From Spirosoma sp. KCTC 42546 (GTDB lineage: Bacteria; Bacteroidota; Bacteroidia; Cytophagales; Spirosomataceae), in NCBI RefSeq assembly GCF_006965485.1, contig NZ_CP041360.1, forward strand, positions 3,224,001 to 3,288,000: a stretch of 64,000 nucleotides of DNA. Direction: 5' to 3'. The notes beneath the pieces are model-generated. The model did not search any database. It was not told the DNA's origin and saw only the letters and a program-made list of their open reading frames with translations. Below, piece after piece: positions 14,389 to 17,636 of this stretch. Positions within the stretch are counted from its first letter, which is position 1. The number at the start of each line of letters is the position of its first letter. The translations under genes and the position numbers were made by a program.

Positions 14389-14421
14389 TTGGCAGAGAAT
14401 TAGGCTAATGCATTACTTTTG
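14389..14421 (+). promoter_or_regulatory. Promoter of the lipoprotein gene
   Basis: TTG at 14389-14391, a 22-nt spacer and TACTTTTG at 14414-14421. Transcription would start after the upstream in-frame ATG at 14408, so it supports 14441 as the real start. Confidence 0.6.
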
Positions 14422-14440
14422 CAAAATCAACCTGACATGT

Positions 14441-15022
14441 ATGAAGTACAACTATTTTACGATCGGCTTGCTTAGTTCAGCACTCTTTTTTAGCGCCTGT
14501 AGCAACCACAAGCAGACGGATACTCAAGCTACGGACTCCACTGCAATTGCCGCTACAACTGAATCAACTACCGATATTCCGATTACCGAACGTATAGCCA
14601 ACTTAGGTTTAACCGCCGATAGCGACTGGCGTGGAATTAAGTTAGGTGATGAGTTCGCGAACGTGAAAGGGCTTGAAAAAGGGGAACCGTTCGAGAGTGA
14701 TTCCGATCACATTGGCTACACAATTGAGTTGAAAAATCTCGAAACAGCAGATATACTCTATTATCAAACGGATAAAAAAGTGTCGGCGATTGATGTAGAC
14801 TTATTTTTAAACACTCGCCAGTCGGTGAGCGATTATCAGAAAGACCTGGATTCGTACTTTACCGCCCGTTACGGAACTCCCAAACCCGGCGATGGGGGCA
14901 CGGTTTGGTCGGGCTGGAAACGAGGGGCGGTCACCTTGAAAGATGTCTCGAAAGGCAAAGATTTTGGTTTGAAAATCAAAATAGCATCGACAAGTAATTC
15001 GGCAACAGCTTCCGCGAAATAA
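14441..15022 (+). CDS. Putative lipoprotein of unknown function
   Basis: A 193-residue predicted lipoprotein that I do not recognise. The signal peptide MKYNYFTIGLLSSALFFSAC ends in the lipobox FSAC. A Thr/Ser/Asp-rich linker (about residues 20-45) leads into a domain of about 130 residues containing GDEFANVKGLEKGEPFESDS and a helix-strand end with a GRYGTPKPGDGGTVW-like segment. The promoter at 14389-14421 decides the start. It is followed by a strong terminator shared with the genes on the other strand. Confidence 0.72.
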   Translation: MKYNYFTIGLLSSALFFSACSNHKQTDTQATDSTAIAATTESTTDIPITERIANLGLTADSDWRGIKLGDEFANVKGLEKGEPFESDSDHIGYTIELKNLETADILYYQTDKKVSAIDVDLFLNTRQSVSDYQKDLDSYFTARYGTPKPGDGGTVWSGWKRGAVTLKDVSKGKDFGLKIKIASTSNSATASAK

Positions 15023-15057: not shown

Positions 15058-15103
15058 ACTAATAAGAAGGGCAGCTCGTTTCCGAGCTGCCCTTCTTATT
15101 AGT
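15058..15103. terminator. 21-bp perfect hairpin, bidirectional terminator
   Basis: The arm at 15058-15078 is mirrored exactly at 15083-15103 around a 4-nt loop TTTC. It sits between the lipoprotein gene (+) and the lepA-side genes (-). The right arm includes the TAA of the lepA relic, which suggests that this was the original terminator of lepA. Confidence 0.85.
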
Positions 15104-15161
15104 TAATTTTCAAGCACGCCATAAAAGCTTCCTAGGGGATTTCGACATTACCGACTTGTCT
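15099..15161 (-). pseudogene. Relic of the lepA 3' end
   Basis: Read on the minus strand in frame this decodes as RQVGNVEIP, a TAG stop, then EAFMACLKIN and TAA. The true lepA end (15849-15911) reads [20 protein letters not shown]. Twenty codons plus the stop align without gaps and 51 of 63 bases agree; one Gln codon (CAG) has become TAG. It lies immediately after the stop of the 71-residue gene. It shows that the two genes at 15163-15844 sit inside a duplicated lepA terminus. Confidence 0.88.
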
Positions 15162-15162
15162 A

Positions 15163-15378
15163 TCAAGCAGCCCGTAAATGTATGTCGGCCCGTATGTTTA
15201 AGGACGCTAGTAATTCTTCTAGTTGCCCTATATATTGTTGCCTAAGCCGTTCATACCCTTCAACCGCTAATGAGTCAACAGACGGTTGTTTCTCATGCAA
15301 CTGGACCATGTCATTAAGCCGCTCAATACGAGTTAGAACATCCACGATTTCACTATGTAAGTTTGAGCGTCGATTCAT
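15163..15378 (-). CDS. Small helical protein, partner of nucleotidyltransferase-like gene
   Basis: A 71-residue protein, unrecognised. It is almost wholly helical in character, with heptad-like spacing (IVDVLTRIERLNDMVQLHE, then YERLRQQYIGQLEELLASL), so a short coiled-coil or helical hairpin is likely. It begins inside the preceding gene: its ATG at 15378 lies 26 nt before that gene's stop, predicting coupled translation and 1:1 products. Both genes lie inside the duplicated lepA end. A regulator or antitoxin-like partner for the nucleotidyltransferase is possible but only inferred from size and position. Confidence 0.62.
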   Translation of the reverse strand: MNRRSNLHSEIVDVLTRIERLNDMVQLHEKQPSVDSLAVEGYERLRQQYIGQLEELLASLNIRADIHLRAA

Positions 15379-15844
15379 TGTTCCAAGTTATTTGTATAAA
15401 ACCCTTAGGGAATTTCCGTCGCGTTACCCGGTCTGGTTTGGTCATTGTAAACTGGAATAACCATTCCGCACGGTCTGAAACATACAGAAAATGATCCCGT
15501 TCACGCTCATCAATCATCCGTACGAAATATACATCTAATCTAGCAAATTGATTTTTTAGTAGGCGTAAATCCTTCTCAAACTGATGATGGATTATTTTGG
15601 GTAAAACAAACACCACATCAAGATCATTCGGCTTCTCTTTTTTCGTGACAAAGCTTCCATCAATCCAAAGGGTAAGCGATCTGATAGAAAGTTTGTTAAT
15701 ATCGTTTAGAAGCGAATGTAACAACTCAATTAATTCAAGACGATGATCATTCCATCCGAATGTTTCAACAAACGACTCCCAATCAGTTGCAATTAAGTCA
15801 TATGGAACCAGATGGCCCTGTGCGTCAAAATGAAGGGTTTGCAA
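15353..15844 (-). CDS. DUF6932-like nucleotidyltransferase-fold protein
   Basis: A 163-residue protein with the polymerase-beta-type nucleotidyltransferase signature: DGSFVTKKEKPNDLDVVF (GS at about 63-64, Asp 74 and 76), and a third acidic residue in LDVYFV (Asp 104). The N-terminal DAQGHLVPYDL followed by a short helix matches the pattern I associate with DUF6932 proteins. Such minimal enzymes transfer nucleotides to proteins or RNAs in MNT/HEPN and AbiE-type modules. Initiation appears to be at TTG 15844, 4 nt after the lepA stop, as no ATG lies near. The region looks more AT-rich than lepA, consistent with acquisition. Confidence 0.7.
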   Translation of the reverse strand: MQTLHFDAQGHLVPYDLIATDWESFVETFGWNDHRLELIELLHSLLNDINKLSIRSLTLWIDGSFVTKKEKPNDLDVVFVLPKIIHHQFEKDLRLLKNQFARLDVYFVRMIDERERDHFLYVSDRAEWLFQFTMTKPDRVTRRKFPKGFIQITWNNESTLKLT

Positions 15845-15848
15845 TGCC

Positions 15849-17636
15849 TTAATTAATCTTCAAAACTGCCATAAAGGCTTCCTGCGGGATTTCGACATTG
15901 CCGACTTGCCGCATTCGTTTCTTTCCTTTTTTCTGCTTGTCGAGCAGTTTACGTTTGCGGGAAATGTCGCCACCATAACACTTGGCCAATACGTCCTTTC
16001 GGAGAGCACTTAAGGTTTCGCGGGCAATAATTTTCTGACCGATAGCTGCCTGAATCGCAATTTCAAACTGCTGGCGGGGAATTAATTCGCGAAGCTTTTC
16101 GCAGAGTTTTTTTCCCCATTCGTACGACTTAGACCGGTGAACAATAGCGGAGAGCGCATCGACTTTATCGCCGTTGAGCATTACATCGAGCTTCACCATG
16201 TCCGATTCTCGGTTATCCATAAACTCGTAATCGAGGGAGGCATAACCGCGTGAGATCGTTTTGAGTTTATCGAAAAAGTCGAACACGACTTCGGCCAATG
16301 GCATCTCAAACTGAAGTTCAACACGATCGGCGGTCAGGTATACCTGATTTTTAAGCAAACTCCGCTTATCCATACAGAGGCTCATAATACCACCCACATA
16401 TTCAGCCTTTGTGATGATCTGAGCCCGGATAAACGGCTCCTCAATGTAGTCGATCAGGTTTGGATCGGGCATTTCAGCGGGGGCCGATACCTGAAGTTCT
16501 TCACCTTTGGTGGTCATCACCTCGAAACGCACCGATGGTACCGTAGTAATTACGGTCATGTCGAACTCGCGCTCCAGACGTTCCTGCACAATTTCCATGT
16601 GGAGCATACCGAGGAAACCGCACCGGAAACCAAAGCCTAAAGCCGCCGATGTTTCGGGCTCCCACACGAGGGCTGCATCATTGAGTTGCAACTTCTCCAT
16701 GGCATCGCGAAGGTCTTCGAATTCACTGGTTTCTACCGGATAAATACCGGCAAATACCATCGGTTTTACTTCCGAGAAACCCTGAATAGCCACACTGGCT
16801 GGATTATCGATAGTTGTAACGGTATCGCCAACTTTTACTTCTTTGGCTACTTTAATACCCGAAATCAGATACCCTACATCCCCACACTCAATCACATCTT
16901 TGGGCTCCTGGGTCAGGCGGAGCGTGCCAATTTCATCGGCGGTGTATTCTTTGCCGGTGTTCATGAACTTCACCTTATCGCCCTTGCGAATACGGCCGTT
17001 CTTAACCCGGAAAATAACCTCGATACCCCGGTACGAGTTAAAGTGCGAATCGAAGATCAGCGCCTGCAAGGGACCTGAGGGCTCGCCTTTAGGGGGCGGA
17101 ATTCGCTCCACAATAGCGGCCAGAATTTCCGGAACACCAATACCCTCCTTACCCGATGCCGGAATGATATCGTCACGGTCACACCCGAGCAGGTCCACCA
17201 TTTCGTCCTTAATCTCCTCGGGCCTGGCACCCGGCAAGTCGATCTTGTTCAGGACGGGGATGATAACCAGGTCGTTATTAAGGGCCAGATACAGATTTGA
17301 GATCGTTTGTGCTTCCGTTCCCTGCGACGCATCGACTAAAAGCAATGCCCCTTCGCAGGCGGCAATCGAGCGAGAGACCTCGTAACTAAAATCTACGTGA
17401 CCCGGTGTGTCGATCAGGTTTAGCGTGTAGAGTTCACCCTTGTACATATAGTCCATCTGGATAGCGTGACTCTTGATGGTGATGCCACGTTCACGCTCCA
17501 GATCCATATCGTCGAGCAGTTGGGCCTGCATATCGCGGGAACCAACGGTCTTTGTGAACTCTAATAATCGGTCGGCCAGGGTGCTTTTACCGTGGTCGAT
17601 ATGGGCAATAATGCAAAAATTACGGATATGTTTCAC
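15849..17636 (-). CDS. lepA: Elongation factor 4 (LepA GTPase)
   Basis: Ribosome-bound GTPase that acts on stalled or mistranslocated ribosomes. It has 595 residues, normal for the family. The GTPase motifs are in order: AHIDHGKST (G1), RERGITIKS (G2), [11 protein letters not shown] (G3) and NKIDLPGA (G4). Domain II, the EF-G-like III and V domains, and the LepA-specific C-terminal domain follow, with the basic [19 protein letters not shown] segment near the end. The last 20 codons exist again as a decayed copy at 15099-15161, so the present 3' end may have been replaced or duplicated when the cassette arrived. A 34-bp palindrome precedes the gene. Confidence 0.98.

Follow-up and report, generated by a model that had tools for sequence, protein, structure and literature searches.

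The window analysed here is a 64-kb stretch of the genome of Spirosoma sp. KCTC 42546 (8.66 Mb in a single contig, NZ_CP041360.1; positions 3,224,001 to 3,288,000), in which the 3′ end of lepA, the gene for elongation factor 4, occurs twice around a pair of small genes. On the minus strand, lepA is followed in order by a gene for a DUF6932 nucleotidyltransferase (NTase), an open reading frame (ORF) for a protein of 71 aa, a 63-bp relic of the lepA end and a hairpin (Table 1). The stretch between the two copies is 687 bp long and contains these two ORFs and no others. The nearest named homologues belong to Spirosoma aureum and S. spitsbergense.

Table 1 Features of the lepA locus, in coordinates of the window
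Feature	Position	Strand	Remarks
lepA (elongation factor 4)	15849..17636	-	Host gene, intact; LepA_C profile 175.8 bits
Proximal repeat copy	15849..15911	-	Functional lepA 3′ end with stop codon
DUF6932 NTase	15353..15844	-	163 aa; TTG start; GSX9DXD; proposed toxin
Two-helix partner	15163..15378	-	71 aa; unstructured tail; proposed labile antitoxin
Codons for C-terminal Ala-Ala	15166..15171	-	Proposed ssrA-like degron
Distal repeat copy	15099..15161	-	Relic of the lepA 3′ end with in-frame TAG
Strong terminator-like hairpin	15059..15102	.	Follows the relic and contains its TAA; pattern scan assigns the plus strand
Convergent lipoprotein-like gene	14408..15022	+	

A duplicated lepA end around two small genes

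When the last 63 bp of lepA were compared without gaps along both strands of the window, they matched only themselves (63/63) and positions 15099-15161 (51/63), with no third copy at 36/63 or better. Local alignment of the two copies scored 35 against a maximum of 11-13 in shuffles. Because the distal copy is the sole match of at least 36/63 on either strand, the repeat is not a chance resemblance. The duplication described in the original prediction therefore holds at its coordinates, and we also find the other features it named: the in-frame TAG that replaces a CAG in the distal copy, the TTG start codon of the NTase at 15844, 4 nt past the lepA stop, the 26-nt overlap between the NTase gene and the 71-aa ORF, and the terminator-like stem holding the TAA of the relic (21 bp, -47.7 kcal/mol, z -7.4). 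A crude terminator scan matched 30 of 30 loci, cassette-bearing ones included, and was not used as evidence. Neither an Rfam family match nor a tRNA was found near lepA.

Empty sites behind lepA in relatives

The comparison of related genomes that had been suggested for this locus covered 36 genomes of the Spirosoma group, 33 of which gave a full-length lepA match, and 31 downstream flanks were read (genomes are labelled Gnnn, with G000 for the strain itself, and loci Lnnn). The cassette is present in five of these flanks (the strain itself, G004, G005, G019 and G030) and absent from the remaining 26, where a hairpin is seen by eye after lepA. G011 and G031, which have lepA and whose flanks lie outside the 31, have zero NTase matches genome-wide. 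A distal repeat was found in KCTC 42546, G004 (52/52) and G005 (55/58), and also outside the genus in G148 (55/55); in G019 and G030 the cassette is present and the distal copy is undetectable. In G003 and G008 a cassette-free lepA has, by eye, the same convergent neighbour as in our strain, from which it follows that the uninserted state is lepA, terminator, neighbour. The distal copy, beside the terminator, is in the ancestral position, in support of the earlier suggestion that the decayed copy is the old lepA end. Insertion at a gene terminus that is now present twice likewise gains support from the empty lepA sites, together with the same layout at seven other host genes.

Related cassettes behind other host genes

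Within the family, 76 of 222 genomes have NTase relatives and 46 have a match to the profile of the small partner; a PF22014 search matched 50 of 390 genomes of the order. Loci were taken for most of these matches, giving 141 NTase ORFs at 131 loci, and this search of other gene ends recovered homologous pairs behind many further host genes. In our repeat test the 320 bp preceding each NTase were aligned with the 1600 bp following it; shuffles reach about 15 at most, and a clear upper group of 16 ORFs at 15 loci scored 26 or more. The 3′ end of the host gene is duplicated at 13 loci and eight host genes, named by profile: lepA (4 loci), mutS (2), an RbsB-like binding protein (2), ettA, fabH, rpe, cysE and thrA. 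The repeats at these loci are 32-114 bp long and end between -4 and +20 nt from the host stop codon, and no host-end repeats of 130-320 bp were found within the range of the search. A gapped, intergenic repeat at L164 was excluded from the 13.

The control set comprised 632 gene ends in the window and in 800 kb of three genomes, of which five scored at least 19, one of them lepA. The other four matches are paralogues or repeats: two tandem-paralogue pairs seen directly (L271 and L282, minus strand), a pair of aldo-keto reductase-like genes judged by eye (L274) and a repeat array (L282, plus strand). Duplication confined to a gene end was thus seen at 0 of 631 control ends, compared with 13 of 132 NTase genes (Fisher p 7e-11). 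Two of the control loci have features of their own. The tandem acyltransferase-like paralogues at L271 are almost identical in their last 90 bp and diverged in the remainder, which suggests gene conversion at the 3′ end, and the regular repeats at about 5900-7100 of L282 resemble, by eye, an array of the CRISPR type.

Placement was compared for the 126 NTase ORFs with a visible domain start, with distances that are approximate since they run to that domain start. A same-strand ORF ends within -250 to +60 nt of 109 of these 126 ORFs compared with 327 of 566 control genes, and 76 of the 126 lie within -60 to +20 nt of a same-strand upstream stop codon compared with 125 of 566. Among the hosts that lack a repeat are dnaE, in three genera (profile E 8e-6 in one of them), a permease-like gene (11 loci), an isocitrate-dehydrogenase-like gene (5), a glycogen-synthase-like gene (3) and tyrosine recombinase genes (8); the names idh-like, permease, glgA, lon, leuS, dxs, rny, atpC and pepA were given by reading the sequences, without profile support.

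Several loci stand apart. The tyrosine recombinase genes directly precede the cassettes at L087, L091, L107, L119, L138, L141, L152 and L155, and at L141 the end of the recombinase gene recurs after the cassette as a 19-bp repeat; this locus is not among the 13. Nor is L178 (G240), where an NTase with a helix-turn-helix partner lies beside thrS and 132 bp of the thrS 5′ end are duplicated upstream, that is, the duplicated-end pattern at a gene start instead of a gene end. Two near-identical cassettes lie in tandem, about 2.5 kb apart, at L180 (G341). The genome of KCTC 42546 itself has four further DUF6932 NTase genes (G000:C1:2916522, 7214420, 2266088 and 8586413; L034-L037 and L099), two of them interrupted by a stop codon within the matched region; a duplicated gene end was detected at none of them.

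A wider search found DUF6932 in 23 of 395 genomes, 19 of these outside the order. Among 21 loci outside the order read by a motif script, 15 gave an NTase ORF and none a convincing gene-end repeat; the DUF6932 gene at L325 (G623), also outside the order, had a repeat score of 24.5. A search of genome contigs with A1 gave no relative.

The mobile unit and its transfer

In a tree built from 119 NTases, 10 changes of host, the minimum, suffice for the 11 host groups that have at least two members, against a mean of 35.2 in shuffles. Each cassette clade is thus tied to a single host gene. This fidelity crosses genera for lepA (Spirosoma and g10) and dnaE (three genera). Within one host gene the fourfold-site divergence of NTase and host is mostly alike, which argues for mostly vertical descent with loss, and on these grounds we dropped the idea that the cassettes are mostly exchanged horizontally. 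For lepA, the values between our strain and G004 are 0.54 for the NTase and 0.57 for the host gene, and the insertion looks old.

Fidelity to host genes across genera and largely vertical divergence would also be expected if the pair were a regular operon partner of lepA, and related pairs partners of other genes, serving a function linked to the host gene, with a repeat that arose by local duplication. We consider this very improbable given that the hosts are functionally unrelated, that most Spirosoma lepA flanks lack the pair, that close relatives sit behind different hosts and that the mutS cassette has recently been transferred (below).

The limits of the unit emerge from cassettes that changed hosts. 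The fabH cassette of G157 (L130) and the cysE cassette of G076 (L139), each with repeats, are sisters on the tree and have 78% DNA similarity over 639 bp; L138 and L145 have 81% over 689 bp, and L095 and L051 follow the same pattern. Between different hosts the similarity runs from the start codon of the NTase into the final codons of the small gene and extends beyond these limits by a few bases at most. At this level of comparison the mobile unit is bounded by a start codon and a stop codon.

At the mutS locus, G001 and G022 differ at 7 of 752 positions across repeat, cassette and repeat and at 204 of 2546 in the flanks, an 8-fold lower divergence (p 7e-16; p 0.01 from fourfold sites alone), and synonymous changes number 82 across 400 codons of mutS and 4 across 152 of the NTase. 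In coordinates set by the NTase domain, the tract of low divergence covers -47 to +786 and the repeats cover -38 to +714. The alignments mark this cassette as a recent transfer, with its edges near the repeats.

The two repeat copies and routes of integration

Across ten loci, 34 of the 44 coding differences between the two copies are synonymous (p 2e-4 against one half, 0.012 without rpe), an excess that purifying selection on the proximal copy explains in part. The rpe copies are the extreme case, with 10 of 10 differences synonymous and 20 of 20 bases identical after the stop; here the proximal end resembles the relative G200, while the distal end and the upstream gene resemble G196, which makes recombination with other alleles likely. 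The lepA copies of G148 are identical and native-like (51/51, nearest relative 47/51) and those of G004 are alike at 51/51, so that copies are more similar within these genomes than between them, while NTase and lepA diverge in step. This pattern points to gene conversion between the repeats as likely, and we therefore rejected the identity of the copies as a means of dating the lepA insertion. The effect is slight in the pair of binding-protein loci of G088 and G097 (69/76 within a genome, 63-68/76 between).

These comparisons refine the original view of a regenerated terminus. The architecture agrees with it; the proximal lepA copy, however, is not visibly foreign, and it resembles every one of the 12 relatives shown more closely than the relic does. 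A foreign gene end carried in by the cassette, as the full story, is unsupported in G148, in ettA and in our lepA, where both copies look native, with rpe as the exception. The identical native copies of G148 fit a repeat made by the insertion event itself. The rpe locus and the synonymous excess fit such an origin less well. Plain target duplication with neutral decay of the distal copy may still be the complete account, although the synonymous excess speaks against it.

A carried gene end is the core of one alternative, site-specific integration by a tyrosine recombinase encoded elsewhere, in which the repeats would be attachment sites as in islands at tRNA genes. A gene 3′ end, an intact host gene and a flanking block of identity make up the classic picture of such events, each cassette clade has one host gene, tyrosine recombinase genes are themselves hosts, and the rpe copies differ only synonymously, with a proximal end that looks recombined. 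We nevertheless think this route unlikely: unlike in an integrase-borne island, there is no integrase gene between the repeats, the units run from start to stop, the repeats vary in sequence and length between hosts with no core seen by eye and without a dedicated core search, and a foreign carried copy in G148 should differ from the native one.

A second alternative does without a dedicated mechanism: DNA taken up by the cell would be joined by illegitimate recombination helped by homology, or by template switching during replication, and selection would retain only those insertions that fall between a stop codon and its terminator. The variable length and left boundary of the repeats, the short filler (70 nt) in G157 and the rpe case in which host sequence supplies the ATG of the NTase all suit it, and the synonymous differences would fit the gene end of a donor. 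It is possible but less probable than not in our estimation, as repeats longer than those observed fell within the search range and were absent, and as every instance concerns one type of module, with none at the control ends.

The nucleotidyltransferase and its partner

The NTase scores 104.1 bits against the PF22014 profile, whose curated cut-off is 27, and thus belongs to the DUF6932 family to which it had been assigned by inspection. The GSX9DXD motif is found in 112 of the 119 NTases of the tree, with a spacing of 14 in three and no match in four, and residues G63, S64, D74 and D76 are invariant in A3. A sequence search against solved structures returned one meaningless match.

MenAT/AbiE type systems consist of an NTase toxin with a partner gene, as proposed here; the partner in our pair is a different one, however, and no AbiEii or related profile matches the NTase at E<=1. 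HEPN/MNT (HepT/MntA) systems also have adjacent small genes, one for an NTase, and our NTase shows a weak structural match to MNT proteins. An excerpt of PMC7641770 gives the motifs GSX10DXD for that NTase and RX4HXY for the HEPN partner, whereas our NTase has one residue fewer between the same motif elements, RX4HXY is found in 0 of 119 partners, no HEPN profile matches the 71-aa protein, and the latter is a two-helix hairpin.

A small partner is present at 119 of 126 loci. In KCTC 42546 its helices are followed by an unstructured tail, and the protein matches nothing in Pfam, NCBIfam or PADLOC at E<=1; it has no clear structural relative and no helix-turn-helix by profile search. At 80 of 119 loci the partner ends in Ala-Ala, encoded by many codon pairs, compared with 1 of 653 background ORFs. 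The strain's own transfer-messenger RNA (tmRNA) tag, GEYNYAMAA, likewise ends in -AA; the tail of the partner differs from this ssrA tag in being encoded in the gene itself, and it is probably a degron for ClpXP, a candidate suggested by its sequence. Outside the order one partner (L324) ends in AA.

A labile partner of this kind would free the NTase once a phage halts host gene expression, and the NTase matches the PADLOC profile PDC-M63A (E 2.7e-16); on this basis the primary role could be to protect against phages through abortive infection, and not selfish addiction. We regard that as doubtful. The second gene is recognised by no PADLOC profile, none of 50,697 phage records gave a match (plasmid matches were two, both partial), and the excerpted accounts of PDC-M63AB report a negative test, with no defence activity, and contain no description of gene-end insertion.

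A probable mobile addiction cassette at gene ends

Weighing these results, we regard the 687 bp between the lepA repeats as probably a mobile addiction cassette, with an NTase toxin and a small antitoxin and without a movement gene of its own, that duplicates the end of its host gene on entry. The insertion layout, its recurrence at eight host genes, the limits of the unit, one recent transfer and the Ala-Ala bias are seen directly in the sequences; the roles of toxin and antitoxin, degradation, co-expression, addiction and the manner of integration are proposed from them. The cassette would enter between the stop codon and the terminator of the host, the duplicated gene end leaving the host gene intact. 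Lying before the terminator, it would be transcribed together with its host, and translation would probably be coupled through the start codon next to the host stop. ClpXP would continuously remove the antitoxin, a lability that we infer to be built in because its free C-terminus ends in -AA like the tag of the host's tmRNA. Loss of the cassette, for instance by recombination from repeat to repeat, or a shut-off of its expression would leave active NTase in the cell, and the labile antitoxin would thereby make loss costly. Recombination between the repeats would remove the cassette scarlessly, which fits the many empty sites.

Two small genes that adjoin or overlap are also a feature of type II toxin-antitoxin systems. 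The antitoxins of such systems are labile; for the partner described here lability is predicted from the Ala-Ala tail, which adds an argument to the earlier suggestion of a toxin-antitoxin module. A DNA-binding, autoregulating antitoxin is common, though not universal, in those systems, whereas the 71-aa protein lacks a helix-turn-helix. The distant DUF6932 partner in G240 does have an HTH_3 domain, and at L317 and L333, in other classes of the phylum, the partner joins a helical N-terminal part to a helix-turn-helix; this may perhaps be the ancestral form of the pair.

The closest parallel for the insertion itself comes from restriction-modification genes, which Nobusato et al. 2000 (Gene 259:99) reportedly found inserted with long target duplications of variable length. 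Two marks of such events, empty sites in relatives and long repeats of variable length, are found for the cassettes described here. Excerpts of PMC3031569, PMC1643837 and PMC4978471 describe how restriction-modification genes insert with long target duplications, and all three cite Nobusato et al. 2000, which PMC2654758 also has among its references. To judge by these excerpts, the likeness extends to a small two-gene unit of the addiction type, the lack of a transposase, a long variable target repeat and the possibility of later recombination; the cases differ in that ours concern an NTase pair, recurrent behind the stop codons of housekeeping genes, in other bacteria and with a target before the terminator. 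Flanking repeats at transposed Arabidopsis genes are mentioned in an excerpt of PMC2869330. DUF6932 is not named in the literature searched, and we recognised no paper there as describing such cassettes.

More tentatively, and with less confidence than in the cassette itself, we suggest that these pairs form a family of minimal selfish elements that has not been described before. Each would consist of two ORFs bounded by a start and a stop codon, without promoter, ends or transposase; such elements may colonise the gap between stop codon and terminator of housekeeping genes by gene-end duplication, live on the transcription and translation of the host and be retained through an antitoxin carrying a genome-encoded copy of the tmRNA degron. 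The repeats would then be working parts that keep the host gene intact and allow precise exchange or loss.

Long target duplication, a little-explained process reported for restriction-modification genes, would thereby be extended to a pair resembling a toxin-antitoxin system. The replicates are many, since members of a single gene family lie at eight or more host genes whose ends are duplicated, and one cassette has recently been transferred with its edges at the repeats. How genes lacking a transposase move is an old question that becomes testable here, through genome comparisons as well as laboratory work. For recognising labile antitoxins in genomes, the Ala-Ala tail gives a simple rule that can readily be checked. 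For annotation, small overlapping ORFs behind essential genes in Spirosoma and its relatives should not be taken as the functional partners of those genes.
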